Shown one piece after another: positions 5,161-21,502 of a stretch of 30,688 bases of DNA. The DNA is from Dissophora ornata (Eukaryota; Mortierellomycota; Mortierellomycetes; Mortierellales; Mortierellaceae): the NCBI GenBank assembly GCA_025201705.1, contig MU616947.1, forward strand, positions 1-30,688, written 5' to 3'. Within the stretch, counting starts at the first letter, position 1. Each line of letters starts with the position of its first letter. The position numbers and the translations under genes were made by a program. Below the pieces are notes generated by a model that was not told the DNA's origin, searched no databases, and saw nothing but the letters and a program-made list of their open reading frames with translations.

Positions 5161-8100
5161 TTATACATGAACATGTTGTCCACCGGCCGCCGCAGTCCTG
5201 GCAATGTCCTCCTCAATAAACCGCCTCTCCTCCTCCGACAACTCAAATGGCTCTTCCGGGGACTCGAATGGAGCCGACGTTCTGTGCAGGTCCGATGTAG
5301 GATACAAAACTGGCGAGTCCGGTGATGACGGCCTGTCCACTACCAGGTTCGAGCGCAGGTGACTGTAGTCAGGATCTGGTCGCGTGTGGTCCTGATGTAA
5401 TGACGACGGTTGATTTGGTGCCGCTCGACGGGGGAGGTACGATGAAACTGTGCGAATCTGTCCTTGGTGCTGTACGTTGAGACCTGACCTTGGGTAAATG
5501 CTGGGAGATGAACCGGTGCCGGGACCACGGTGCGCAGACCCACGAGCCTGTTGTTGTTGCTGCTGCTGCTGCTGTCTAGCTTGAACCCCTTTCAATACAG
5601 CAATCTTTTGGCGGTGATCTGCCATGAGCGAATCGATGCTCTTGAGGAGGTTCAAAACAACCTCAGCGTGCTGCTTTCGGACAGGATCCCGTGCACACAT
5701 GGCGCGTGCCTTTGCCGCCTTGATCTGCCTATCCACGTCGCCCTCAGCCACAGGCCTAATAGTAGGAGGTCGGGTAATGATCTTTACATTCAATTGATCC
5801 AAATGAGTCTGGGCTAGCTGGCGTGTCATCGCCTCCACTGGGTCCAATGCCTCCGTTGGCGAAGTAGCGACTGCAGCGGCGGCGGCTGCTGCTGCTGCTG
5901 CTGCTGCCTGATTTGCACGCACTCTTTCGGTATATCCGCCATAACGGGTCGACGATACCGGCTGCGTATTCAATGGTAGGGCTGAATCCGTGTTGTGCAA
6001 CTCCTGAACGCCATGTTCGCCAGCGGTTCGGTCCTCTTCACCCTTTTCCAGGTCCTCGATAGAGAATTCCTTGACTGCGATTCCTGGCAGCGGTGTGCTT
6101 GGGACTGCGGGCGCGTCCAGCATGATACTTTCGGGATCCATGCCAACGTATGACGACTTTGGCTGCCTCTTTTCTGACGGACGCTGCATCGCCATCATAC
6201 CTCCAGCGGATGCGTTCTTGTTAGCTTTAGCCTTGGTCTGAGTGCTCATGTCTGCATAAGTTCTCTCGACCTTGACAACCACCTTGGGCTCAAAGACTTC
6301 ATCCTTGGGTTCCGCCTTGATTTCTGGCTTTACGCTGCTGTTCATCAAGCTGTTGATCGTAACGCATTGATATTCGAATTCACTGGTTGGCTGCTGGACT
6401 GTACTTCTAGCTGGCGCGACTCTCACGACTCCCGGCATTGGCATACCCACAGTAGGAGTGATACCCCACGACATTCTCTCAGACCCATACGTCATGGAGG
6501 GCGCCGAAGAGGTAGAGACGTAGGGATCATCAGGGAGGACGGTGCTGTAAATCGAGTCCTTTTGTGAGGCCCCGCCTGGGCCTGTGTTGTTGGCAATGTT
6601 GCTGTTACTGAGGTTGAGGCCGAGAGCTGCAGCGTTATAATTCGAGTATCCGCCAACATTATAGCTTGTATCCATTGCGACTGGGTTCTGTGGTTGTTCA
6701 TAATCTGGGAATAGCGTGCCGAATGTCTGCGGCTCAAAGAGCTCTCCACTGACATCCTCGAACAGCGCCGAGCAATACTGGCTGACCTGGTCCCAGTTGC
6801 TGTCAGGCAAGGATGTCAGCAAACGGTCATGCGTCAGTGGGGCGACATCCAGAATGGCCGAGATCGCATCCAAGCGGCCCATCATATCTAGAAAAACAGC
6901 AGCCCAATTTATTTTTCCCAAAAGTGGTCAATCGTTGTTCCTCGACACATTCGCATTCCGTCTTCCGAACACTGGCACGACTTTGATACAGCCCCCCTCT
7001 TCTTGCCGATAGCCTTACCTTCGTTGTAGGAAGGATCCAGACGCTTCTTCTTTGCCTCTGCAACAAGCGGGCCCAAAGTGTCGGAGAGAAGCTCGTCGAC
7101 ACCATCACGCGCACGCTTAGCGCTCCTAGGCGACACAATGTCTTCAAAGTCTGAGGTGGGTGGGAAGGCGCCGTAGTAAGTACCAGAGACATCGATGACG
7201 GGTTTTCCGAACGCCCGACTGTTCATTAAAGTCGCTTCCAAATCCTGTAGTCTTGGCGAGTTGTAGAGTTCCGAGCTAGTCGAGTAGGAGGGCGAGGCTG
7301 TACGCAGGTTTAGGAAGCAAGCTCCAGGAGATTAGAACACCGTTCCTCCAAACATAAAACAAAACGCTGCGCATGCGAAAAAAAAAAAAGAAAAAAAAAA
7401 CAAAGTTTGAAGCTGCAGAAAATAAGCAAACAAGCATTGAATAGGCCTTACAAAGACCAGGGTTGTTCCATGATTCGCTCGAGTCTGCCATACTGGCGGG
7501 GGACATGGGTACGTAGTATTGTGAGTGAGCAGAGACCGTGGACGCAGCAATCGTGGGAGAGTGATCTGTGAAGGATGGGGGCGAGAGGGGCTGGTATGCC
7601 TGGCCATGGCCGCTAGGTTGCAAGAGGGACGATGATGACTCAACAGTGTCCTCTTCTCCTGCGCCAGCATTCTCCTGATGGGTCCGTTCGTGTTTTTTCA
7701 AATCCTGGCGCCGCTTGAAGGACTTGTTGCAAATCTTGTTTCGCAATACAATTGAAAAGTAAATAAAAAATGCCAAGAGATAAAGAAAAAAAAAAAAAAC
7801 GTCAGCGGCTGTGGCCAAGCAAAGGAGCAATTGAGGAAAAAAATAGTGCTTGACAACAACACCCAATAGCAAGGCTCTAGAACAATGATATGCACAGCAT
7901 CTGCAATGCCAGGAAGCCTTACATCGCAACTGTGTGGCTTCAAGTCAACATGGATCCGAAGGTGGGATGTGATATGATCTCTCTTGCTAAACGTCTGAGC
8001 GGAGCACGAGTCCCAGCGACAGGTCAGGCAGAGGTTGTGCTTGGCCTTGCGGCCGACGTGGTCGTCTATGAGGTGCTGGTACAGCAGCTGGGCCTCGTCA

Positions 8101-8180
8101 AAGTTCTTGAGGCATTCGTCCCAATGGCAGATGTAGTCGTCCGAGAAGATGAAGTACTGGGGCGATGGGGTGCTGTCCAT
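5161..8180 (-). CDS. pacC: PacC/Rim101 pH-response C2H2 zinc-finger transcription factor
   Basis: Four exons, 8180-7923, 7734-7452, 7297-7019 and 6887-5161, join in frame to 848 residues. Three zinc fingers occupy residues 18-105: finger 1 C18-C23-H36-H41, finger 2 C54-C59-H73-H77, finger 3 C85-C88-H101-H105. The signature strings NDHVGRK-like [29 protein letters not shown] and [14 protein letters not shown] are those of PacC/Rim101. Intron 1 splits finger 3 between its two cysteines. The bipartite basic region AKRARD...[12 protein letters not shown] in exon 3 corresponds to the region after the DNA-binding domain in PacC. Exon 4 carries polyalanine, polyglutamine, a run of psi-K-x-E sites and two YPxxxL-like motifs near the C-terminus. 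In the known Pal/Rim pathway, alkaline pH triggers proteolytic activation. The start gives an N-terminus close to finger 1, shorter than ascomycete PacC. The family call is firm; the exact processing site is not visible. Confidence 0.95.
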
Positions 8181-9128: not shown

Positions 9129-9356
9129 TTACACTCTGGCCATGGAAAGGGCCTGCATGTGGCCCAGGGCGCTCTTGCTCAAGAGCATCTCTACGGCATT
9201 CTGGTGCGAGAGGAGCTGGGTCTTGTTGGCAGCTGGGAGATCGGAGGCATCGAGCTGGATCGAGGTACGGGGGGTCTGCGCGGGAGTGTTGACGGCAGAG
9301 GCGGTCTTGTTCTTCTTGGAGGAAGCGTTGGATCCGGAGAACTTGAAGAAGGCCAT
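9129..9356 (-). CDS. Small FFKxSK-family protein, divergent member (75 aa)
   Basis: This intronless gene encodes 75 residues starting MAFFKFSGSNASSKKNKTAS and containing TPAQTPRTSI. It shares the N-terminal hydrophobic-basic block and the central TPR(S/T)S block with the cluster at 11.9-18.4 kb, but its C-terminal block is diverged (QNAVEMLLSKSALGHMQA in place of QALEMLHKKAMPNA). No signal peptide or membrane segment is seen. A TATAAATA box lies on the minus strand at 9495-9488, and the leader between it and the ATG is A/C-rich and nearly free of G on the coding strand. The function is unknown. The start is the only ATG giving the family N-terminus. Confidence 0.75.
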   Translation of the reverse strand: MAFFKFSGSNASSKKNKTASAVNTPAQTPRTSIQLDASDLPAANKTQLLSHQNAVEMLLSKSALGHMQALSMARV

Positions 9357-9487
9357 TGTTTTTGTGTTTGTGTTGTGTGTTGTGTGTTGTGGTTATGTGT
9401 GTGAAGGAGAGTGAAGGAGAGTGATGATGTTGCTTGAGTTGCTGTTGAGTTGTGATGAGTGAGAAGGAAAGCGCAATGGCCCGGTCG

Positions 9488-9495
9488 TATTTATA
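9488..9495 (-). promoter_or_regulatory. TATA box (TATAAATA) of the small gene at 9129-9356
   Basis: TATAAATA sits about 132 bases upstream of the ATG. The same octamer, often followed by CG, stands at a similar distance before the B-type genes and the gene at 11878. Confidence 0.65.
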
Positions 9496-9499
9496 CGGA

Positions 9500-11007
9500 C
9501 GACCGTGCCTGGTTGTCCAAGAAATGAGAATGGTGGGGAGTGTGTTGGGGGAATAGGCGAGAACATTTTCAGGCTGAGCTTCAACCTAGACTTGAACCGT
9601 GCGGGGCCTGGATTATAAGAGTGGGAAGGGAAGAAGGGTGAGCCAGCGTCTGGCGATTAAAAATAGACCGCGGCACACACGCTCATTCATCCATCCTTAC
9701 ACCTCAGAGGCGCCGTCCCTTCTTCATCGTCTACCGAAATGGAGTAGAGTGGAGCAGAGGGCGCATCTTCGTCTTCGAGTCGCATACTTTTCACGATCGG
9801 ACTTGTATTATACAGGGCGAATGAGGTGATATGGCGACAGCACGCACTGTTCAGTCCAGCATGCTCCCGCAGCACGCTGGCTAATGCCTGTTCTCACTGC
9901 TGCCAGTCATGATCTGTAGCCTGTCACGTTTCCATTATGTCAGGCACGATTCTCTTCAAGTAATCTGGCTGTTCTCATTGTCAACATGCTACGTGTTCGG
10001 CGTAAAAAGGGTTTCTGAACAGACAGTTCTAGAACGGGTCCCCTGAGCAAGAGAAATGGGTTGTTTCTTGCGGATGGCACGCATATGGTATGGTATAGCC
10101 CGGATCCCAGCAAGGTGTCAGAGAGCGAGAAACAACATGCGCGCAATGCTGTATATGGTCGCGGACAATACTGCCTTCTAAATTATATTTAGGTCGCTGG
10201 CGATCAGACCCGCTTTTAGGAACCATCTTCGTTTTGCTGAGACGGATAAAGAGGAGCGACAGACTGAGACGTAAACGTTTTCTGTTTGCCGTGGTGCATT
10301 CGCTCATCCTCGTCGATAATTTTCAGTCGGAGATTTTTTTAATCTCTCAACGACTGTGGAGTGTGAAATTAACGAATATCTGTTCGTACGTGAATACAAA
10401 TGCAAGGGACAGCCATTCATCCATTCCCATGAGGCGGTCGTGGGAGTCAACAAAGCAAGCGACTGGCCAAGCGAGCATTTTGGCTGGGTGGAATGCACTC
10501 TCCTATCCCATCCCGACCTGCTCCTGCAGTGTCTTAATCCCTCAACAATAGGATATCACCGAGAGAACGTGGATCAGCATTCTGAGTCGGAATGACTGGA
10601 AGTGCCATACACATCGTATTACGATAGCACGTACACGACTTCAACATGTCCTCACGCTCGAAGGGGTCTACATCAATGTCAAATGGTCAATCAACTCTAG
10701 CCTCCCCTGGGCCATGAGTGTGCCTCGAGTAGATAGCAGCAAAGAACCGTGTCTGAGTTGGTCCCCCTCGAATATTCCTTGTAACTGCAGCGCATAGGTG
10801 TGAATGACGCGGGGCATTCATTGAGTCCACTCCGAAAAGCACCACCCCGCTACTTTGAAGCCTCTTATAGTAACCCGCTTATCCTAGGTTCGTTGGTCCC
10901 ATCCTGCGGCAACCATTGGGTATTGTTCAAGTAACAGTCCAGGGATCCCAGATTAGACATCTTGGCAAATATCCGTCAAGCAAGCACAATTCGCATCAGA
11001 CTTCCGC
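9500..11007. other. Non-coding stretch, no gene recognised
   Basis: About 1.5 kb contains only short overlapping open frames on both strands with no shared motif, no credible splice sites joining them and no RNA gene I can fold. GGTTCAAGTCT on the minus strand near 9590-9600 resembles a tRNA box B, but no paired T-arm or acceptor stem surrounds it. Confidence 0.5.
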
Positions 11008-11394
11008 ATGAAGACAGAGAAATTCTGCTCCTTCGAAAGTCCTCTTAGAAACAGGTCCACCGAAGCCGCTGCCTCACCGGCACAGACCCCTCAGGAATCC
11101 ATCGACGAGTCCCATCCTTACACTTCCGACCTCACCGCCAGGGGATTGAAGCAAGCTCAAGAAAGCGAAATGCCCCACACTACGAAAGTCAATCGGATCT
11201 TACATACTTTAGACGCGCTGGTCGCATCCAACCAAGTCAAAATGCGAATATCCATAACCAACGTCTATGTACAGCATCAAACGGTCCACCGCTCAATGCA
11301 TACTATGACAATGATGCGCGATCCTAGCACAGTTACCTCCAAAAGCGACACGTTTACACTTACTCGTTTTCTAGAGTTTCTGAGCCGTACGTAG
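11008..11394 (+). CDS. Possible divergent relative of the small FFKxSK family (128 aa)
   Basis: This open frame of 128 codons begins MKTEKFCSFESPLRNRSTEA and continues AASPAQTPQESIDES. Residues 7-34 line up without gaps against the first 28 residues of the A-type small proteins (FFKSSKNQSASAA.SPAATPRSSMHE); AASPA-TP, a serine and the acidic residue after it are kept. The underlying DNA is also alignable, so common origin is plausible. The rest, about 90 residues, has no MLHKKAMPN block and matches nothing I know. No strong TATA box precedes it. It may be a decayed or repurposed copy, or a chance open frame. Confidence 0.3.
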   Translation: MKTEKFCSFESPLRNRSTEAAASPAQTPQESIDESHPYTSDLTARGLKQAQESEMPHTTKVNRILHTLDALVASNQVKMRISITNVYVQHQTVHRSMHTMTMMRDPSTVTSKSDTFTLTRFLEFLSRT

Positions 11395-11761
11395 GCGCTT
11401 TTGAACTGAGGCATTTTTTAACTGCGGGCTTGCAGTTGCTGGAGTTTATTCGACCGCAGCGAGACAGGGCGTGGCACCCCGATCCTTGTTTCGTACCTAT
11501 TTTATCTCCTACAGAATTGCCGCACCCAGTCTGCGGCTGTTTAACGTTTCTGTTTGAACGGCTTGCAAAATTTGCGGACGTAGAATTTTTTTATGATTTT
11601 GCTCGTTACTCAATATGTGGTCCAGGAATGGAAATGAAAATGAATAGACAGCAAAAAAGAAACGTCGATGGTCGAATGCTTTGACTTGGCAAAGCGCGGC
11701 AGTTCTAGAAGAAGGCAGAGGGACATGGGCCACTTCTTTCGAACACTGCTTCGATCGTTGC

Positions 11762-11769
11762 TATAAATA
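11762..11769 (+). promoter_or_regulatory. TATA box (TATAAATA) of the small gene at 11878
   Basis: TATAAATA followed by CG lies about 110 bases upstream of the ATG. The leader after it is rich in CAA/CAC and poor in G. Upstream, at about 11670-11690, is CTTTGACTTGGC, which resembles part of the B-type promoter block and includes GCCAAG on the minus strand. Confidence 0.7.
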
Positions 11770-11877
11770 CGTGCACACTTTCCCACTTTTCCCAACCTCA
11801 CTCAACCACAACAACCCAAGCATAACAACTACAAAGCTCGCCAGTAAACCAAACCGAACAAACCCACTACTACAACC

Positions 11878-12057
11878 ATGCCTCTTTTCAAGTCCTCCAA
11901 GAAGAACGAGACTGCCTCTGCCGCGGCCACTCCAGTTCAGACTCCTCGCAACTCTATGCACGAGCAACGCCCCAAGGTGATGACTCAGGATGAGGCCCTC
12001 CACATGATCTTCCAGAAGACCATGACCAACGCTGCTACTGGCCCTTTCCTCCGCTAA
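11878..12057 (+). CDS. Small FFKxSK-family protein (59 aa)
   Basis: This intronless 59-residue protein starts MPLFKSSKKNETASAAATP and ends MTNAATGPFLR. The three family blocks are clear: basic-hydrophobic N-terminus, QTPRNSMHEQRP in the middle, and MTQDEALHMIFQKTMTNA, probably an amphipathic helix, at the C-terminus. It is the most distant member that still keeps the A-type HEQRP, and its helix is closest to that of the gene at 18141-18413 (MTQDE, K-MTN). It stands alone, outside the triplicated unit. AATAAA lies about 175 bases downstream. The function is unknown. The match across paralogues makes it a real gene despite its size. Confidence 0.88.
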   Translation: MPLFKSSKKNETASAAATPVQTPRNSMHEQRPKVMTQDEALHMIFQKTMTNAATGPFLR

Positions 12058-12310
12058 AGACGACATCAGAGGTCACTCGCTCGTAGCCAAAATCGACTCA
12101 ACCTACACGCGTATTCGATTCCCTAGCTCCACGAGATTTCACAAGCCTAAGGCACACATATACATCGCAGCATCATATACCTCCGCGTTGTCTTCAAGGA
12201 TGGCCACTCCATACTGTATCATACCATAGCATAATAAAAACATAAGCATTTCGAACATCAAAACTTACATCGTCCGAATGTTACAACTTCAATTACCCTG
12301 GATCTGGTCT

Positions 12311-12432
12311 TTCGCGAGCAACACTCTGATGCTTCGCGAGCAATACTCTGATACTTCGCGAGCAACACTCTGATATTTCGCGAGTAACACTCTGATATTT
12401 CGCGAGTAACACTCTGATATTTCGCGAGCAAT
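12311..12432. repeat. 22-bp tandem repeat, about 5.5 units, core TTCGCGAG
   Basis: TTCGCGAG recurs at 12311, 12333, 12355, 12377, 12399 and 12421, exactly 22 bases apart. The consensus unit is TTCGCGAG(C/T)AA(C/T)ACTCTGATA(C/T) and the units differ by only a few bases. Each unit contains the palindrome TCGCGA. The array lies between the 3' ends of the convergent genes at 11878 and 12630. Confidence 0.95.
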
Positions 12433-12629
12433 GACTACAGTACAGAATTTGACAATTCTCTTCTGATACTTTTGCATTCTGCCAAACAACCAGACTTTTT
12501 GAAACACTCGCTTTCGTAAATTAAAGGCTTATTTTAATGCTACAGGTAGATAATACGGTATTGTACAATTGTAAAATGATAGCAGATGCATTAGGCAAAG
12601 TGCCCGTCAACATTGTCGGCTGTGGGTTT

Positions 12630-12803
12630 TTAACGGATGAAAGGACCGACAGAAGCGTTGGGCATTGCCTTCTTGTGAAGCATTTCGAGGGCTTGGTCTT
12701 GTGTCATCTTGTTGACCTGCACGGGGCGCTGCTCATTCATCGAAGATCGGGGAGTAGTGGTGGCCGAACCGGACTGGTTCTTGGAGAACTTGAAAAGTGC
12801 CAT
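12630..12803 (-). CDS. Small FFKxSK-family protein, B-type copy 1 (57 aa)
   Basis: This intronless 57-residue protein starts MALFKFSKNQSGSATTTPRS and has SMNEQRPVQVNKMTQDQ, then ALEMLHKKAMPNASVGPFIR at the end. B-type members lack the SPAA insertion of A-type members and have NEQRPVQV.KMTQDQ where A-type has HEQRPASTMTL.Q. It is rich in Ser/Thr next to Lys or Pro, so it is probably phosphorylatable. No signal peptide, no transmembrane segment and no cysteine. It is divergently paired with A1 across 653 bases. The function is unknown. Confidence 0.9.
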   Translation of the reverse strand: MALFKFSKNQSGSATTTPRSSMNEQRPVQVNKMTQDQALEMLHKKAMPNASVGPFIR

Positions 12804-13456
12804 AATTGTAGAGAGTGGGGTGATGATTTGACGGAGAGAGTGTTGACTTGTTGGTCGGATGCTCGGAAGCGTTTGTTGGTTTGTTGCTGAAGTTGTTGAA
12901 GATGTTGAATGATGATTAGAGGGAAGTGGGGCGCCTCCCAGGACGTATTTATACAAAGATTTAAACGCGTCTACTTTTGCAGGAGGGGTTGGTTGACAAT
13001 GCCATCCATCCATGCTGTGAAATGCGGCACCATGCATTGCGATGCTTTGTAGAACACCCCACATGCAACCAAAAGAGCATTCTCGGCATTGCTTGGCTAC
13101 ACGCTTTGACTTCCATTCTTGGCAGCCATCGAGGTGGACCATATTTGTGCACGATCGAAAAAATTTAAGCATTTTTCAGGCACCGCTATTCGTTCCTGAA
13201 TTTTCCCGCTTCTTGGAACTCCTCTATGATGTTGATCTTCTGTGCAGAATGGTCCATGCTTCACATAAAGGGAACAGTCGCACGCCAAGAATAGACTCTA
13301 GACAGCCGAAAAATGATATAAAAGGGTCCAATTCTGCTCGTCTTCAACCCTCTCTTCACTCAACCAACAACCAACCAACAAAGCACCAAGCTACCAAGCC
13401 GCCAAGCAACTACTTCCATTCAAGCCCACAAGCACTCACCCATACACTCATCAACC
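12804..13456. promoter_or_regulatory. Divergent promoter of pair 1 with GCCAAGAAT elements
   Basis: TATA boxes: TATAAATA on minus at 12953-12946 for B1, and TATAAAAG on plus at 13317-13324 for A1. GCCAAGAAT occurs on minus in 13123-13114 and on plus from 13284, each about 35-170 bases upstream of its TATA box. A further CTTGGC lies at 13092-13097. GCCAAG is the PacC/Rim101 core. A conserved block GGAACAGTCGCACGCCAAG precedes the A1 TATA box. The A1 leader is a CAAC/CCAA-rich, G-poor tract. Confidence 0.65.
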
Positions 13457-13636
13457 ATGGCCTTCTTCAAGTCTTCCAAGAACCAATCTGCCTCTGCTGC
13501 TACCTCTCCTGCTGCTACTCCTCGATCGTCGATGCACGAGCAACGCCCAGCAAGCACGATGACGCTAGACCAAGCCCTCTTGATGCTCCACAAGAAGGCG
13601 ATGCCTAATGCCTCTTCCGGTCCTTTTATCCGCTAA
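13457..13636 (+). CDS. Small FFKxSK-family protein, A-type copy 1 (59 aa)
   Basis: This intronless 59-residue protein starts MAFFKSSKNQSASAATSPAA, has TPRSSMHEQRPASTMTLDQ in the middle and ends ALLMLHKKAMPNASSGPFIR. The ATG sits in CAACCATGG, a good fungal start context, and follows a long G-poor leader. AATAAA lies about 80 bases after the stop. It differs from A2 and A3 at only a handful of residues. The C-terminal 20 residues are nearly identical to those of the B-type, which argues that this block carries the function. That function is unknown. Confidence 0.9.
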   Translation: MAFFKSSKNQSASAATSPAATPRSSMHEQRPASTMTLDQALLMLHKKAMPNASSGPFIR

Positions 13637-13737
13637 ACGGACATTGTCTACATTTTCACAAGCATTCATCATTACATTGTATAATATCACATCAAACCAC
13701 ATCTAGCATCATAAAATAAACATTGCTCTTCAGCATC

Positions 13738-14320
13738 CTACTCGATCGATATTCTTGCGCTTGGGATTACTTCCATGTTCTGATAGCCGGCATGTGTGGA
13801 TCCTTGAGGTATACACTCTTCGCTGGGGTCCAAAAGACGCTGAAACGCTTGATTAATGTGATGCAAGATCAGCACTACAAGCGTTTCTATCTTTTCCCCC
13901 GTCAGCTCAACATGCTTAATCATCATCGTTGCATTTTCATTTCCTCGTGTTGGCAGAGTGAGATCGTCAAGACTTGAAATATAGATATTATTCATTGGAG
14001 ACTCGCTTTTTTGGGCGGCCTTTCGGGGTATTTAGAGTCTTCAGAGTCGTCGGGGGTACCTCACCATGGGATTGATCTTAATTATGACGTGGTTGGGATG
14101 AATTTCAAGCTTAAAACTTCCTCTGAAAGAAAGACACAAGGCGTGGAAAACGTAACATGGACCCATGAAATTGCAGAGGGAACAGAGCCTTTTGTTAGAA
14201 CTTTTAATCCAGTGCGGACGACGGATAGCTAATTGAAAGGGGTTAACCGCCTCGTTCTGAGCGAAGGGAAACAAGTAATAAGGAAGAAAGCGCATATAGA
14301 CAAGAAGCAGTGTACACACG
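13738..14320. other. Spacer of unit 1 with relic-like open frames
   Basis: Two open frames here have counterparts in unit 2. On minus, 13995-13738 reads 85 codons, while the unit-2 copy has a one-base deletion and an early TAG. On plus, 14011-14232 includes VTWTHEIAEGTEPF, and the unit-2 frame at 16070-16276 has EAWIHEIADGTDPF. Several of the DNA differences in that stretch fall in third codon positions. I do not recognise the protein. It may be a decaying gene carried along by the duplication. Confidence 0.35.
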
Positions 14321-14549
14321 CATTATTACTGAGACCATTTTGAAGCGTCTAATACAGAATGCCGATTTAAAATCGTAGCCAGAAGATATCGGATCAAGAA
14401 CAGAGCGACATGTTTAAGCAATCAGAATGTGTTCAGTTTAAGATGCTGGTGTTGTTTCTTTTTAATGTTACAGGATTATACTAGAGTACAAGGGATAAGT
14501 GCTTATAGTGTACGAGTTAAGATATTACGGTTCTGTCCATATAGCGTGT

Positions 14550-14723
14550 TTAGCGGAGGGAAGGGCCGGTACAGGGATTAGGCATTGCCTTCTTGTGGAG
14601 CATCTCGAGGACCTGGTCTTGCGTCATCTTGGTGACTTGCACGCGGCGCTGCTCGTTCATCGAAGATCGAGGAGTGGTGGATGCCGAAGCGGACTGGTTC
14701 TTGGAGGACTTGAAAAGGGACAT
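14550..14723 (-). CDS. Small FFKxSK-family protein, B-type copy 2 (57 aa)
   Basis: This intronless 57-residue protein starts MSLFKSSKNQSASASTTPRS, continues SMNEQRRVQVTKMTQDQ and ends VLEMLHKKAMPNPCTGPSLR. It is the most changed of the three B copies: P to R after NEQR, A to V in the helix, ASVGPFIR to PCTGPSLR at the end, and the only cysteine in the triplicated set. The frame is intact and the length is identical to B1 and B3, so it is probably functional or only recently relaxed. Confidence 0.88.
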   Translation of the reverse strand: MSLFKSSKNQSASASTTPRSSMNEQRRVQVTKMTQDQVLEMLHKKAMPNPCTGPSLR

Positions 14724-15451
14724 GTTTGTAGTGAGTGAGTGCTGTTTTGACTGACTGAATGCTGGCTTGTTGGTTGGATTCTCAAAAGCGTTTGTTGGTT
14801 TGCTGCTGAAGTTGATAAAGTTGTTGAATGATGATGAGAAGGAAAATGGAGTACATGTCTGGACGTATTTATACAATTTTCTAAGCGCGCCAGTCCTGCA
14901 GGAGGATCAATTGGCGTTGTCTTCGTTGTCTTTCATCAGTGCCGCGCAACGAGGCGCCGTACAACGTGACGCTTTGTCGAGCACCTTCACACACAAAAAA
15001 ACAAGTGCGTTCTCGGCATGCTTGGCTGCAAACTTTGATTTCCATTCTTGGCATCCATCAAAGCAGACCATATTTGTGTACGACCGATCCAAATGGACAG
15101 TCGAAAATTAATTTACGCGGTGGTGATGACATGTCAAAAATAAGCATTTTTCAGACACCGCTCAGTGCCGTTCCTGAATCTTCCAAGAAAGCGTCGTGCC
15201 GGTTTTATGTTTATATTTTCTGCGCAGAATGGCCCATGCTTCGCAGGATTAGTCAATGGGAACAGTCGCACGCCAAGAATAGATTCTGGACATCCGAAAA
15301 GCGGTATAAAAGGGTCCAATTGTGTTCGTTTTCAATCCTCTCTTCACTCAACCAACAACCAACCAACAAAGCAACAAAGCACCAAACTACCAAGCAACTC
15401 GCAATCACTACCATCCAAGCCCACAAGCACTCACTCATACATTCAACAACC
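14724..15451. promoter_or_regulatory. Divergent promoter of pair 2 with GCCAAGAAT elements
   Basis: TATAAATA on minus at 14873-14866 serves B2 and TATAAAAG on plus at 15305-15312 serves A2. GCCAAGAAT lies on minus in 15052-15043 and on plus from 15272, with CTTGGC at 15021-15026. The spacing to the A2 TATA box is the same as in pair 1. The middle part is the least conserved stretch between copies. Confidence 0.65.
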
Positions 15452-15631
15452 ATGGCCCTCTTCAAGTCTTCCAAGAACCAGTCTGCCTCTGCCGCTGCCT
15501 CTCCTGCTGCCACTCCTCGATCGTCGATGCATGAGCAACGCCCAGCAAGCACGATGACGCTAGAGCAAGCCCTCCTGATGCTCCACAAGAAGGCGATGCC
15601 TAATGCCTCTGCCAGCCCTTTTATCCGCTAA
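15452..15631 (+). CDS. Small FFKxSK-family protein, A-type copy 2 (59 aa)
   Basis: This intronless 59-residue protein starts MALFKSSKNQSASAAASPAA, has TPRSSMHEQRPASTMTLEQ in the middle and ends ALLMLHKKAMPNASASPFIR. It differs from A1 mainly at residue 3 (F to L), T16 to A, D to E before QALLML, and SGP to ASP near the end. Start context CAACCATGG and a CCAACAA-rich leader match A1. AATAAA lies about 80 bases downstream. The function is unknown. Confidence 0.9.
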   Translation: MALFKSSKNQSASAAASPAATPRSSMHEQRPASTMTLEQALLMLHKKAMPNASASPFIR

Positions 15632-15734
15632 ACGGACATTGTCTACAGTTTCACAAGCATTCACCACTCAATTGTACAATATCACATCTAACCACATCTA
15701 GCATCATACAATAAACATTGCTTTTCTGCATCCT

Positions 15735-16450
15735 ACTCGATCGATGTTCTTGCGCTTGAAATTGTTTCCACGTTCTGATAGCCTGCATTCGTGGATCTTC
15801 ACGTTATACACTATTCACTGGAATCCAAAACACGGCGAAATGCTTGATTACTGTGATGCAAGATCAGCACTACGAGCGTATCTATCTCTTTCCCCGTCAG
15901 CTCAACATGCTTAATCATCATCGTTGCATTTTCTTTCTTCGTGTTGGTAGAGTGAGATCGCCAATGCTTGATATATATAGATACATAGATACTATCTACT
16001 AATGGCTCGAGTTTTGGGGCTACATTTCGGGGTATTTACAGTCTTCGGAGTCATCGGAGGCACCTTACCATGGGATCGATCCTGACGGTGAGGATCTGTG
16101 CCGAACTGTTGGACATGGTTGGGATCAATTTCACACTTCCTCCAAAAAAGGCATCAGGCGTGGAAAGCGAAGCATGGATCCACGAAATAGCAGACGGGAC
16201 AGACCCCTTTCTTTTACGAGTTTGGTCCAAGGTGGGCGACCAAAAGGATCGAAAGGGTTTATCTATTACATTCTAGGGAAACGAGGAAAAGGATGAAAGC
16301 GTACATAGACAAATAGTAATGTACATTATCACCGAAGGTGATGCGTCTAATACAGAAAGCCGATTTGTAATCGTAGAGGATCTCGGATCAGGAACAGAAA
16401 TGCGATATTCAATCGCCCAGAGTGCGAGCTTAAGATTCCGGTGTTATGTT
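15735..16450. other. Spacer of unit 2, decayed copy of the unit 1 spacer
   Basis: This aligns along its length with 13738-14465. The minus-strand frame that is open in unit 1 is broken here by a one-base deletion in an A-rich run near 15940 and by a stop. The plus-strand frame 16070-16276 is open, but its upstream part is shifted relative to unit 1 by an insertion of about 20 bases. Confidence 0.5.
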
Positions 16451-16541
16451 CTTTTATTGGTACAGGATTATGCTAGAGTACAAGGGATATGTGTTGATGG
16501 GGTATGAGTTGGAAGATTACGCTTCTAGCCATATAGCCTGT

Positions 16542-16715
16542 TCAGCGGATGAATGGACCAGTGGAAGCATTAGGCATTGCCTTCTTGTGGAGCATCTCGA
16601 GAGCCTGGTCTTGCGTCATCTTGATGACTTGTACAGGGCGCTGCTCGTTCATCGAAGATCGGGGAGTAGTGGTGGCCGAAGCGGACTGGTTCTTGGAGGA
16701 CTTGAAAAAGGCCAT
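16542..16715 (-). CDS. Small FFKxSK-family protein, B-type copy 3 (57 aa)
   Basis: This intronless 57-residue protein starts MAFFKSSKNQSASATTTPRS, continues SMNEQRPVQVIKMTQDQ and ends ALEMLHKKAMPNASTGPFIR with a TGA stop, unlike the TAA of the other copies. Longer open frames read the opposite strand here, but the family match and the TATA box at 16861-16854 identify the minus strand as coding. Its residues 1-16 are closer to A-type copies than B1 is, which may reflect gene conversion. Confidence 0.9.
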   Translation of the reverse strand: MAFFKSSKNQSASATTTPRSSMNEQRPVQVIKMTQDQALEMLHKKAMPNASTGPFIR

Positions 16716-17391
16716 GTTTGTAGTGAGTGGGTGTTGTTTTGACTGAGAGAGTGTTGGCTTGTTGGTTGGATGCTCGGAAGCGTTTGTTAGCTTGTAGCTG
16801 AAGTTGTTGAAACTGTTAAATGATGATGAGGAAATGGAAGGCCTCTCAGGAAGTATTTATACAAAGTTTTAAACGCGTCCACTTTGCGAGGGAGGTAACC
16901 AACCATTCATGCCGCGAAGTGTGATGCCATGCATTGCGCTACTTTGCCGAGCACCACACACACAAACGAAAAGCATTCTCGGCATTGCTTGGCTGCACAC
17001 TTTGACTTCCATTCTTGGCAACCATCCAAATCGACAGTCGAAATTAATTCGCGCATTGATGTCATGTTAAAAATTTTAAAGAATTTTCAGGCACCGCTGA
17101 ATTTTCCCAAGAAAGTGCCGTGCGCGCTTTTCTGCGCGCTTCTTGGAACTCCTCCACGATGTTGATCTTCTGTGCAGAATGGTCCATGCTTCACAGGATT
17201 AGTCAAAGGGGGTATTCGCACGCCAAGAATAGATTCGGGACAGCCGAAAAGTGATATAAAAGGTTCCTGTTGTCCTCGTCTTCAACCCTCTCTTCACTCA
17301 ACTAACAACCACACTAACAAAGCACCAAGCTACCAAGCAACTCGAAACCTCCATTCAAGCCCACAAGCACCCACTCATACATTCATCAACT
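16716..17391. promoter_or_regulatory. Divergent promoter of pair 3 with GCCAAGAAT elements
   Basis: TATAAATA on minus at 16861-16854 serves B3 and TATAAAAG on plus at 17255-17262 serves A3. GCCAAGAAT is on minus in 17019-17010 and on plus from 17222, with CTTGGC at 16988-16993. TTCTTGGAACTCCTC and TGTGCAGAATGGTCCATGCT are shared with pair 1, so pair 3 resembles pair 1 more than pair 2 here. Confidence 0.65.
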
Positions 17392-17571
17392 ATGGCCTTC
17401 TTCAAGTTTTCCAAGAGCCAGTCTGCCTCTGCTGCTACCTCTCCTGCTGCTACTCCTCGATCGTCGATGCACGAGCAACGCCCAGCAAGCACGATGACGC
17501 TAGAGCAGGCCCTCCTGATGCTCCACAAGAAGGCGATGCCTAATGCCTCTGCCGGTCCTTATATCCGCTAA
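17392..17571 (+). CDS. Small FFKxSK-family protein, A-type copy 3 (59 aa)
   Basis: This intronless 59-residue protein starts MAFFKFSKSQSASAATSPAA, has TPRSSMHEQRPASTMTLEQ and ends ALLMLHKKAMPNASAGPYIR. Changes from A1 are S6 to F, N9 to S and F to Y in the last four residues. The start context is CAACTATGG rather than CAACCATGG. AATAAA lies about 80 bases past the stop. The function is unknown. Confidence 0.9.
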   Translation: MAFFKFSKSQSASAATSPAATPRSSMHEQRPASTMTLEQALLMLHKKAMPNASAGPYIR

Positions 17572-17660
17572 ACGGGCGTTCTCTATATTTTCGCAAGCAT
17601 TCATCACTCATTTGTACACTATCGCATTACCAACACCTAGCATCATACAATAAAACACTC

Positions 17661-18140
17661 ATTTCTGCACTCCAATATTGTGCTCGGATCTAAGAGTCGC
17701 AGCATGTCAGACATGCACTAATAATCTACACGGCGCGATATGAAAAAAGAAAAAACGCCCGTACGCACAATCAAACGTCGTTTGCTTCACTTAGTATCTC
17801 AAGTTTTATTTTCGCCCTGGCGACCGTCGAGATTTTTGTAGAAATCGCACGGTCTTATGCCTCATGATTTCCGCTCGCGTCCATAGTGCATTATACTCAT
17901 TAATGACTTCTGGGTTTAATATGTAACGCTCGATAACGACTTGACTTTTGTCATTACGAACGCACAGGCGAGCCTATGACCTCTCATTTCTGCCATCTAA
18001 TGCGTCAATGGTTCGTGTATGGGAATGCTTTATTGTTACAATTGGATGCTGATGTAGTGAAAGGAAGACGAACAGGAAAACGTTGAGGCTGAAAACGCTG
18101 TAGTTGTGGGGCCCCGTTCGTGGACCCTCACATGTGTCTA
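17661..18140. other. Intergenic, no gene recognised
   Basis: The spacer repeated after A1 and A2 is missing. This 480-base stretch shares no obvious sequence with it and has no convincing open frame. It separates the array from the last, divergent family member. Confidence 0.5.
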
Positions 18141-18413
18141 TTAACGACGCATTCTGGACAAGGACCCATTAGTCATGGACTTGAGGTAGATTTTATGCAG
18201 AATCTCATCCTGAGTCATGTTATTCTTGAGGTCCAGGCCAGGCATGAGATTCATATTGGAGTTGTTATTCCGTTGGCAATCGAGTGGCTCTTCCAAGACA
18301 GACATGGTATCCGCACGCAAGAGAGGACGGTCGATGGTCGAGGTTCGTAATGCCTGCATATGAGTCGAGAGAGAAGCAGCACTGTGGCTCTTGTTGGACT
18401 TGAAGAGCGGCAT
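18141..18413 (-). CDS. Small FFKxSK-family protein, long divergent member (90 aa)
   Basis: This intronless 90-residue protein starts MPLFKSNKSHSAASLSTHMQ and ends MTQDEILHKIYLKSMTNGSLS followed by RMRR. The first 10 and last 25 residues follow the family pattern. About 30 extra residues (RPLLRADTMSVLEEPL..., NNNSNMNLMPG) are inserted between the central block, here ALRTSTIDRP, and the C-terminal helix. Its helix resembles that of the gene at 11878, so these two may flank the array as older members. TTTTTATG at about 18561 is a weak TATA candidate. Confidence 0.75.
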   Translation of the reverse strand: MPLFKSNKSHSAASLSTHMQALRTSTIDRPLLRADTMSVLEEPLDCQRNNNSNMNLMPGLDLKNNMTQDEILHKIYLKSMTNGSLSRMRR

Positions 18414-18419
18414 GACTAT

Positions 18420-19800
18420 AGTGCTTTGGTGTATGTATATTGACAGGCTGGTTTTAAACGAGCGGCAAAGGCAGCGAGAAGGTGGAGGCTGGGAAGCGGT
18501 TGATATGTTGTGCGTGAATGGGTTGAAAAAGATAGAAAAAAGACGTGCCAGAAGGTCCTTTTTATGCCTCGCGCGGACGTATGTACGACGGTCTCACTTC
18601 CAAAGTGTTGCTAGACTACGCCATGCCCTAATATTCGAGAAGTGCATTGACCGTGGGAGAGACCCGCGATTGAGCTTAGTCAAAGAGAAGTGGGGTTGTT
18701 CTCTTACGCCAGGTGAAAAGACCCGCAGCTCGAAAAAAAATCGCTCAACCAGCTTGAGTTGAACTGGAAATGCCTCAAGGATCGAGAGAATGCGCGATTT
18801 TTCTTTGCAATTTGCTCCATCCTAGGTCTACTTACCTGGACGTGCTTTCAAGAGCGCGTTCCAATTGTTTTTTTTCCTTGCCACCAAATAGATCGATCAC
18901 GTTCACCCAATGATGTCAAATGGTAAACCCGAAAACAGGACACGTTCGAGTCACCTGCCTAGGGACATACGCCACCAATTTCAGTAGGACAGCTGAAAAG
19001 GACAGAGGTCCAAACCACGCCGGAAACCCTTGCAAGGGTAGATCATGAAGCAAAAGACCATGCGATCTCGACAAAAATCTCAATGATCGCGAAGCAAACG
19101 ACGGCTGAGACCTATAGTGAGTCGCAGTGGGAGTCACTTGTCGGGCCGCAAAGGGCGAAGCGAGGCGAGAGGGACTGAAAACAGAACATGGACTTGAATC
19201 AGCCACTGTCTGTCTGTGATCCTGACGAGGAACCATCAGCGTAGGGCAACGATCAACAACGGCCCGAGGGTGTAGCATGGACAGCCGCTTTACTAGCCGT
19301 AAATGGACTATTCATGGTCGCGGGGTTGCAAAGGGTCACTACTTGGTGGTATGCAGGCCGGCGCTGTGGGCAAGCATTTGTTCGGTTGATCGGGTTGACT
19401 TTGTTGATTTGTTTGATTTGTTGATACACAAACACAAACTTCGTGGTTGCGATGCTTGATGCCAGGAGCAGAGGGGACCCGGAGAGGGGAACAGTGCTGC
19501 CCTTCTTACTGTGATTAGCACTCGGGTCGGGGTAGTGTGTTCACCCGTGCCTGGTGGCCACAGACGGTCATCCAGGGAATACCACAGAGTGGGTTGGAGA
19601 ACAGAATGTCGCTCTTCTCGGCTCAAGGTGTCACGTGCAAGAGTGACACTCCAACGGCACACGCCTCGCGCTGCTCTGTGGCCAGAACGGCTCACACGCG
19701 GCACGAATAAAAAGAGAACCTCAATTTGAATTCTTTTCTCCATTTACATTCTTCTCCACACCCCCACCCATCTCCGCTCTCCCTCTTCATACAACAGCAC
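18420..19800. other. Intergenic, no gene recognised
   Basis: About 1.4 kb lies between the last small gene and the thiolase start. Several open frames of 60-134 codons overlap each other on both strands, but none shows a domain, a family match or a splice-consistent structure. GAATAAAAAG near 19705, about 100 bases before the thiolase ATG, is a plausible TATA-like element, followed by a C/T-rich leader. Confidence 0.5.
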
Positions 19801-19807
19801 AAGCACA

Positions 19808-21502
19808 ATGGTCAACCATCAGAAGGTCTACGTTATTGGTGTCGGCATGACAAAGTTCATCAAGCCTAGAGACTTGAGAGACTACCCTGGTATGTCGCAT
19901 TCAGGTCCCTGGCCTGCGATCGTTTTCTATTAGGGGCGCTTCGGCTGACAAATTCTCTTGCAACTCCTTCGTATCTGCATCGTAGATATGGGTCGTGAGG
20001 CTGCCACTAAGGCATTGTTGGATGCTGGCATCACCTACGACAAGGTCCAGCAGGTATGTCTGATTCGGCTCGCCTATTTATTCTTCCGCCTCCTCACAAT
20101 ATATTCAGTTGATCGATCGAATCATATCCACGGACCTCGTAAACTTACACACTGTGGCCATTACTATCCTTACTAGGCTGCTGTCGGATACTGCTACGGT
20201 GACAGCACCTGTGGTCAGCGCACCCTGTACCAGCTCGGAATGCACCAGGTAATGCAACAGCAGGAGCCGAGAGGGGGAGACAGCCCATTGGCGCGGATAA
20301 AAGAAAGTAAACCGGCCACTGAGGAGAGGAAACCTTGAGCTAACTTATGCAAACCATAATTTGACGCCCTGCGAAAAAAAAAAAAACGCCTTGCGTAGAT
20401 CCCCATCATCAACGTCAACAACAACTGCTCCACCGGATCCACTGCCCTTTATTTGGCTCGCCAGGCCATCGAGTACGGTATCGCTGACTGCACCATGGCC
20501 CTCGGTTTCGAAAAGATGGAGGCTGGTTCCCTTGGATCAAAGTTCCAGGATCGCACCAACCCCTTGGACAAGACTATGACGATGATGAGCGAGACCCGTG
20601 GCATTAGTGCCGGTCCCTTTGCCGCCCAGATCTTTGGTAATGCCGGTATCGAGTACTGCGAAAAGTACGGCGCCACCCCTCAGCACATGGCCAAGATCGC
20701 CGAGAAGAACCATCGCCACTCTGCTTTGAACCCTTACTCCCAGTTCCGCGATATCTACACCTTGGAGCAGGTCGAGAAGTCCAATACCGTGTTCGGACCC
20801 CTGACCAAGCTCCAGTGCTGCCCTACCTCAGACGGCTCTGCCTGCGCCATCTTGGCCTCGGAGAAGTTCGTCAAGGAGCACAACTTGCAGGACCAGGCTG
20901 TTGAGATGGTTGCTCAGTCCATGGCCACCGATTCGCCCAAGCTCTTCAACGAGTCTTCGATCGAGTTGGCTGGTGCTGACATGACCCGCCGTGCCGCCCA
21001 GGAGGTCTTCAGTAGGGCCGGCATTAAGCCCACTGATGTTCAGGTTGTCGAGCTCCATGACTGCTTCTCGGCCAATGAGTTGATCACCTATGACGCTCTC
21101 GGACTCTGCAAGCCCGGTGAGGCCCACAAGTTGATCGACACCAACGATGTCTCGTACGGCGGCAAGTACGTCGTCAACCCCTCTGGTGGTTTGATCTCCA
21201 AGGGCCACCCTCTCGGCGCCACTGGTTTGGCTCAGTGCTCAGAGTTGGTCTGGCAGCTTCGCGGCTGGTGCGGTGATCGCCAGGTTCCTAACTGCAAGTA
21301 CGCCCTCCAGCACAACGTTGGTCTCGGTGGTGCTGTCGTCATCTCGCTCTACAAGAAGGCTGACTTGGGCTCGTCCCCCAAGTACGTCGACTCGCGCAAG
21401 CGCGTTGGCTACAACCCTGCAGTTGAGGCCCGTGAGGTTTCAGAAGAGGAGGTTGAGTCTGTCCGCGCCAAGCAGAGCTCCGAGTTCATGGCTCGCCTTT
21501 AA
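19808..21502 (+). CDS. SCP-x-type thiolase (3-ketoacyl-CoA thiolase-like), probably peroxisomal
   Basis: Exons 19808-19889, 19986-20053, 20177-20248 and 20399-21502 join in frame to 441 residues. The start [17 protein letters not shown] is the typical N-terminus of SCP-x/nonspecific lipid-transfer thiolases. The nucleophilic cysteine is C84 in NNNCSTGS, a histidine is H294 in [10 protein letters not shown], and H344 lies in [14 protein letters not shown], all expected for the fold. [12 protein letters not shown] follows. The enzyme class cleaves 3-ketoacyl-CoA, often of branched or sterol side-chain substrates, in beta-oxidation. The protein ends ARL, which fits the PTS1 pattern. The C-terminal SCP2 sterol-carrier domain found in animal SCP-x is absent; length is that of the thiolase domain alone. 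A/T runs occur in intron 3. Three small 5' exons precede one large exon. Confidence 0.92.

Follow-up and report, generated by a model that had tools for sequence, protein, structure and literature searches.

Lineage-specific microproteins encoded in head-to-head gene pairs as a candidate PacC/Rim101-type target set in Dissophora ornata

What is a crowd of very small genes doing beside the gene for a zinc-finger regulator in a soil-fungus genome fragment? The question is raised by contig MU616947.1 (assembly GCA_025201705.1; here C386) of the 31.37-Mb genome of Dissophora ornata (Mortierellaceae), whose analysed stretch of 30,688 nucleotides is called the window throughout. Our answer is that the small genes encode a family of basic microproteins, 57-90 residues long in the window and so far confined to the Mortierellaceae, that has expanded mainly as head-to-head gene pairs and, on balance, most probably serves as a set of targets for the ambient-pH regulator PacC/Rim101.

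One small-protein family accounts for nine intact one-exon genes and one decayed gene in the window:

9129..9356, minus strand: C-type gene, 75 aa; the only C-type found in the D. ornata genome, with close relatives in many Mortierellaceae genera
11008-11394, plus strand: open reading frame of a decayed member (family part about 11032-11181; profile E 2.9e-7), resembling the J-type (P0201, P0204)
11878..12057, plus strand: D-type gene, 59 aa (profile E 1e-29)
12630..12803, minus strand: B-type gene of pair 1, 57 aa
13457..13636, plus strand: A-type gene of pair 1, 59 aa
14550..14723, minus strand: B-type gene of pair 2, 57 aa
15452..15631, plus strand: A-type gene of pair 2, 59 aa
16542..16715, minus strand: B-type gene of pair 3, 57 aa
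17392..17571, plus strand: A-type gene of pair 3, 59 aa
18141..18413, minus strand: E-type gene, 90 aa; the most diverged intact member

A preliminary description of this DNA had proposed at least eight small open frames belonging to a single protein family, and both points hold. A profile built from 40 outside proteins, with no window sequences among them, was run on 645 six-frame stretches of the window and recovered all ten places at E 1e-29 to 3e-7; the next match had E=1.1, a gap so wide that the ten places are not due to chance. The weakest intact member is the 18141 gene (whole-frame E 7.5e-9, best single domain 4.8e-5), which resembles the 11878 gene at a pairwise E of 1e-7 across 19 C-terminal residues only. 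The genes are intronless, as their open frames and conserved C-terminus imply; in public databases, certain models of copies (e.g. P0031) end differently close to the C-terminus, in an intron-like manner, which we read as mis-modelling. At least two public gene models apparently fuse neighbouring members wrongly: in P0018 the decayed 11008 frame is fused with the 11878 gene, and P0001 reads as two B-type genes of contig C314 (7048, 8913) fused across an opposite-strand gene, even though P0001 is assigned to a contig of 35149 nt and C314 has 31898. The two-domain tandem proteins in the databases (these two, perhaps also other models of 110-150 aa) are at least in part annotation merges of neighbours.

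Across the genome, window included, searches with three member proteins and the 18141 gene found at least 33 family places in the D. ornata genome: ten on C386, eight on C314, five on C285, four on C524, three on C698, two on C310 and one on C468; four weaker places, on C398, C37, C203 and C566 (E 0.3 to 2.3), were set aside. Head-to-head pairs, 12 in all, take up 24 of the 33 places: ten pairs join an A-type to a B-type gene and two, both on C285, an F-type to a G-type gene. Two places on C698 are convergent rather than head-to-head. The window array consists of three such pairs (three minus-strand and three plus-strand genes) and had been described as a triplicated array. Three repeated units are indeed present, but they did not arise by plain local triplication, because in a tree of the ten A/B units window pair 2 groups with the C314 pairs, apart from window pairs 1 and 3. 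The A/B copies lie in units recurring at about 1.9-2.0 kb, with conserved non-coding blocks. Similarity between window positions 13976-14077 and 15980-16081 (77% identity) extends the roughly 2-kb units into non-coding DNA past the gene pairs, so that the units were probably copied along with their downstream flanks. A tandem array of a 22-bp unit, TCTGATATTTCGCGAGCAACAC, with 5.9 copies and 91% matches, occupies 12303-12431 between the 11878 gene and the first B gene.

The regulatory reading starts from the DNA between and upstream of these genes, where the following features were located:

12804..13456: divergent promoter serving both genes of pair 1; TATA boxes at 12946 (B side) and 13317 (A side); GCCAAG at 13092(-), 13118(-), 13284(+) and, in the leader, 13401(+)
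14724..15451: shared divergent promoter of pair 2; TATA boxes at 14866 and 15305; GCCAAG at 15021(-), 15047(-) and 15272(+)
16716..17391: shared divergent promoter of pair 3; TATA boxes at 16854 and 17255; GCCAAG at 16988(-), 17014(-) and 17222(+)
9488..9495, minus strand: TATA box of the 9129 gene, 139 nt before the ATG
9517..9524, plus strand: CCAAGAAA, a site of the Rim101 type upstream of this TATA box (28 bp between their starts)
11685..11690, minus strand: GCCAAG site upstream of the 11878 gene
11762..11769, plus strand: TATA box of the 11878 gene
18708-18713: GCCAGG near the 18141 gene

GCCARG is the published consensus of PacC and of Yarrowia Rim101 (PMC3618310, PMC8265631), and the Candida Rim101 sites are GCCAAGAA for repression and CCAAGAAA for activation (PMC10783099). 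Among 12 elements tested in 17 family regions, GCCAAG was observed 40 times against 5.5 in shuffles. Its density across 19 regions was 4.18 per kb, compared with 0.65 in 20 kb of other contigs, 1.07 in the rest of the window and 1.29 at HSP loci, and 16 of the 19 upstream regions contain it, 18 if GCCARG or CCAAGAA is accepted. At least three copies occur in 10 of the 12 pair regions and in none of 5000 random 490-bp windows (sampled with overlap from just 20 kb). When 6-mers were ranked without bias, with one representative per group, GCCAAG again came among the top six, together with TATAAA, CATTCT and CCAAGA.

The sites also keep their place. Alignment of the ten A/B intergenic regions reveals several conserved blocks, and in 11 of the 12 pair regions GCCAAGAA stands 30-34 bp ahead of the TATA-like box on the A or F side; C314_p4 has a changed form at the GCCAAGAA place, the box of C314_p1 reads CATAAAAG, and for these two the patterns were widened by hand. 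Genome-wide (31.4 Mb), GCCAAGAA-N20..28-TATAAA gave 11 matches, ten of them in family promoters, against three for the reversed control. The sole match outside the family promoters, at C860:10760-10793, could mark another co-regulated gene. The two F/G promoters have four sites each and can be aligned to the A/B promoters in short pieces only, one of which holds a site. A 12-bp near-palindrome, TTCTGTGCAGAA, at window 13238-13249 in pair 1 recurs in each of the ten A/B intergenic regions and varies at the sixth base alone.

A candidate reader of these sites is encoded next door, by a gene of which two exons can be delimited:

7923..8180, minus strand: first exon of a PacC/Rim101-like gene, with the first two C2H2 zinc fingers and the leading cysteine of the third
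7452..7734, minus strand: second exon, completing finger 3; ends read from AG/GT splice signals

Three C2H2 fingers are thus read across one GT-AG intron, and further exons probably continue towards 5161. Pfam gives a match to Zap1_zf1 (8e-9), and the best solved relative in the PDB is GLI. Window 7452-8180 bears what we take to be the PacC/Rim101 finger signature, namely fingers 1 and 2 of GLI-like type and, in finger 3, CxxC with a QDLKKH helix; PacC/Rim101 regulators have a three-finger domain. A literature search with the finger motif strings found no paper. The start of this PacC-like gene and the 9129 gene are about 0.95 kb apart; the 948 bp upstream of the PacC-like ATG contain three GCCAAG and one GCCAGG, somewhat above background. 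For comparison, Trichoderma virens pacC is reported to have nine GCCARG sites in its upstream kilobase (PMC3618310).

A whole-genome search with the first exon found one close copy, 74% identical, at C285:17586-17840, with a third finger that reads ICKKGFKRPQDLKKHEKIH; the next match was 29%. C285, which carries this second PacC-like gene, also contains both F/G pairs and a further family gene. The PacC/Rim101 regulator is usually described as single-copy. Since the seven family contigs together make up 0.62% of the genome, the presence of both PacC-like genes on them is unlikely to be due to chance. The test is post hoc, however, and duplication of a single block may have produced both loci.

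Under the mechanism that we propose, PacC/Rim101, activated upon a change in ambient pH, would bind the putative promoter sites: the three-finger domain of the PacC-like factor would contact GCCAAGAAT sites in the pair promoters, each pair would be switched as a unit, and the family mRNAs would be efficiently translated. Either direction of regulation would fit, because a site so near the TATA box would suit repression as well as activation, and Candida Rim101 does both. The promoter architecture was examined with one TATA pattern, which matched on both sides in 10 of the 12 pair regions and on one side in the other two; the single genes 9129, 11878 and C468 have one TATA box each, 116-139 nt before the ATG, and the 18141 gene gave no match with the pattern used. 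The 110 nt before the ATG have a median of 7% G and 11 CAA words in 28 family genes, compared with 21% and 2.5 in 28 controls, which were open-reading-frame starts picked mechanically, some of them perhaps exon starts. The least typical leaders are those of 18141 (4 CAA) and C468 (6 CAA; two upstream ATGs). Codon adaptation, computed relative to three HSP70 genes, was 0.69 for 9129, 0.62 for 11878 and on average 0.53 for B and 0.46 for A, while five other window genes had 0.32-0.41, five other HSP70 matches 0.63-0.85 and HSP20 0.50. Codon bias and leaders together suggest efficient translation, which would be clearest in the single C and D genes.

Several observations weigh against PacC/Rim101 control. 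Neither the A/B counts nor the ten spacing matches can be treated as independent, because the promoters are copies falling into two groups, A/B and F/G; for F/G alone p is about 3e-3, and GCCAAG ranks 10 of 510 6-mers. By our estimate, the finding of a site in 18 of 19 regions is weak alone, since about half of such regions would have one at background density. Consensus sites exceed background in the pair promoters and not in the four single genes as a group (GCCAAG 2 vs 1.4): the 9129 promoter has CCAAGAAA and lacks GCCARG, and 18141 has only GCCAGG, so that the regulatory reading is weak for single genes. CATTCT, CCAAGA and TATA words rank as high as GCCAAG. In the 17 regions CATTCY (39 vs 12.2 in shuffles, partly overlapping GCCAAG), Yap1-type TTAGTCA/TTASTAA (8 vs 1.3) and GAAnnTTC (12 vs 3.9) are raised too, so another factor is possible. 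The name PacC depends on what we take to be its zinc-finger signature together with GLI/Zap1-type matches, and a search for the PalH sensor gave no match, nor did its controls. Codon adaptation is not clearly raised in 18141 (0.43, p 0.09) or C285:5045 (0.36), and the thiolase gene beside the cluster (20495-21499, presumably SCP-x-like) has an HSP70-like value of 0.71. Taken with the site counts and spacing, these points leave control of the family genes by PacC/Rim101 fairly probable in our judgement. The preliminary description had inferred a stress or developmental role; the promoters suggest a narrower condition, a response to ambient pH.

Sequence comparison shows constraint on the encoded proteins. 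The preliminary description had recognised three ordered blocks; the blocks are real, but the most conserved stretch across the family is the N-terminal KN(K/Q)(S/T)xSA...TPR(S/T)S, which shifts the emphasis placed earlier. TPR[STNAP]S is present in 213 of the 224 listed proteins, window members included; LRTS in the 18141 gene and PQES in the decayed 11008 member stand in its place. The N-terminal segments (median 26 residues) are free of acidic residues in 217 of 222 cases, and this non-acidic arm, MxFFK...KNK(S/T)ASAA..TPxxTPR(S/T)S, is probably disordered and would offer predicted proline-directed and R-x-S phosphorylation sites. AlphaFold models are of low confidence (mean predicted local distance difference test score, pLDDT, 61 for the 9129 type and 65 for the A type) and locate helices of at least four residues in the C-terminal part. 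Of the amphipathic C-terminal helix suggested earlier, the helix is thus predicted, in those low-confidence models, and amphipathicity finds no support: the hydrophobic moment was no higher than in shuffles in six of six segments.

Selection was measured by Nei-Gojobori counts on sequences that included all types named below. A and B differ by dN 0.10 and dS 1.12 (pN/pS 0.16), median dN/dS is 0.29 among 45 A pairs and 0.21 among 45 B pairs, and pN/pS lies at 0.49 (A copies) and 0.37 (B copies) within C314 alone and, A vs B aside, at 0.32-0.70 among the more distant types (A, B, D, F, G, H, I). Most comparisons are therefore well below 1, whereas values near 1 across the distant members had been named beforehand as evidence against protein-level constraint. 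That claim stands for these types; the seven comparisons with the 9129 gene (pN/pS 0.62-0.86 amid much synonymous change) say little, and the 18141 gene was not among the sequences compared.

How widely is the family distributed? Three protein searches yielded the best 120 of 225 matches at E<=1, 14 of 14, and the best 120 of 132 at E<=10. Named matches among those listed come from the Mortierellaceae only (genera checked), and from many genera of that family, which bears out the expectation of homologues in related genomes. Unnamed metagenome matches excepted, restriction to the Mortierellaceae is likely, not proven, among the matches listed; for the 9129-type profile these reach E=1, so deep relatives of this type outside the family are unlikely at this sensitivity. 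Among viral contigs, 28 pattern matches included zero relatives. Consecutive or nearly consecutive locus tags (EMPS_01102/01103/01104, BGZ83_009449/009450/009452, BX616_002789/002790, BGX34_009852/009853, DFQ26_003093/003094/003095) indicate that the 9129 type and other members are apparently adjacent in several genomes, possibly as an ancestral locus. The family had been called unrecognised, and no Pfam family scored above its curated cut-off among 30 proteins scanned; the microproteins are also absent from the literature titles listed in searches on the family or its organisms, one of which yielded a single paper, PMC2848000, with a title on FACT and MCM. The microprotein family is thus unnamed in Pfam and was not found in these listings. 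Two database labels were set aside: 'SMP domain-containing' (the UniRef label of P0007), to which the Pfam scan gave no support, and 'activator of HSP90 ATPase' (the label of P0129), which has no Pfam match and was treated as a misnaming.

The alternative that deserves most attention keeps the same family and makes it a general or heat-stress set under heat-shock factor, a Yap1-type or another regulator, the CCAAGAA element being read by a different protein. It would draw on the GAAnnTTC and Yap1-type excesses given above and on three perfect three-unit heat-shock elements in the 12 pair promoters, where 0.16 are expected; TATA boxes and CAA-rich leaders would fit inducible genes. Yet both words occur mostly in related copies: neither was found in the F/G pairs, and of five single-gene regions tested none has GAAnnTTC and one has TTAGTCA/TTASTAA. 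Nine HSP70/HSP20 upstream regions of D. ornata contain no perfect heat-shock element, so that this control lends heat-shock regulation no support, with the limit that introns may hide the true promoters. Heat-shock control from TTCnnGAAnnTTC sites was dropped on these grounds, the sites being limited to related copies with none perfect in the nine control regions, and we regard the stress reading as a whole as unlikely, if the strongest competitor to PacC/Rim101 control.

The remaining explanations are much less probable. Secreted or antimicrobial small proteins, which we consider most improbable, would also be small, basic (net charge +4 to +6 across the nine window members) and multicopy; by inspection, however, MxFFK is followed by a polar Ser/Ala/Lys-rich arm with no hydrophobic signal core, and cysteine is absent from seven of the nine window proteins and single in two, none of it conserved, in agreement with the earlier view that signal peptide and cysteine pattern are lacking. 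Equally hard to credit is a set of ubiquitin-interacting microproteins whose C-terminal LxxAxxxS helix resembles a ubiquitin-interacting motif (UIM). UIM_2 matched P0008 (E 0.0088, two stretches) and P0007 (0.043), both below the curated cut-off, but eight other proteins scanned alongside gave no UIM match, and the central Ala and Ser, which are UIM features, are not retained in the window A, B and D members. This lead and the SMP label were both rejected, the Pfam matches being below cut-off or absent. Least credible of all is that the frames are by-products of a repeated DNA element, mobile or a non-coding RNA, rather than protein genes. The repeat units of the A/B copies with their conserved non-coding blocks would suit it, and an undescribed RNA is compatible with the lack of any Rfam match at the locus; codon-level purifying selection (as between A and B), protein blocks retained across Mortierellaceae genera and an internal stop in only one of the 33 genome places (C698:6506) refute it in the main.

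Regulation by PacC/Rim101, which we prefer, invites comparison with the Ascomycota regulon (Aspergillus PacC, Candida Rim101, Yarrowia Rim101). That regulon has the same core GCCARG and the Candida variants GCCAAGAA and CCAAGAAA, and it shares multiple sites per promoter and sites upstream of the regulator's own gene. Unlike it, the putative targets in D. ornata form one lineage-specific microprotein family, arranged in divergent pairs and physically linked to the regulator genes. Divergent pairing itself has a precedent in the hsp-16 genes of Caenorhabditis elegans, small heat-shock genes divergently paired around a shared promoter region in arrays of pairs. The D. ornata genes are alike in encoding small proteins from arrayed head-to-head pairs, mostly with TATA boxes on both sides (10 of 12), but their products are unrelated to HSP20 (no Pfam match), and their common element is of the CCAAGAA type, heat-shock elements not being general. 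Small fungal stress proteins of the Hsp12/Con-6/LEA type are short, polar, probably disordered and multicopy, as is the D. ornata family, which differs in having no Pfam match above cut-off; to our knowledge, neither the TPR(S/T)S motif nor the FFK start characterises those families.

What the microproteins do can only be guessed. It is conceivable, if rather doubtful, that they are small phospho-regulated adaptors, in which the arm would dock on the acidic surface of a membrane, an RNA or a partner, and the helix would dock on a protein. Less probable still is that they are part of a pH-signalling circuit, their genes travelling with the PacC/Rim101 gene and being switched by PacC/Rim101, and their products feeding back on PacC activity or on the membrane platform, with the endosomal sorting complex required for transport (ESCRT), that activates PacC. 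If this were true, the family would amplify or brake ambient-pH sensing in a lineage-specific way, and its copy number would tune the response.

PacC-type regulons and lineage-specific microproteins are already known kinds; what is new here is a lineage-specific microprotein family as a putative PacC-type regulon, and no study of a PacC regulon in these fungi was among the papers listed in our literature search. An unnamed family that occupies 33 or more gene places in a single genome adjoins, and is apparently targeted by, a PacC-like regulator, which makes a testable hypothesis. A regulator gene and its expanding short putative targets lie on the same contigs twice in one genome, and this arrangement may be useful for understanding how regulons arise.

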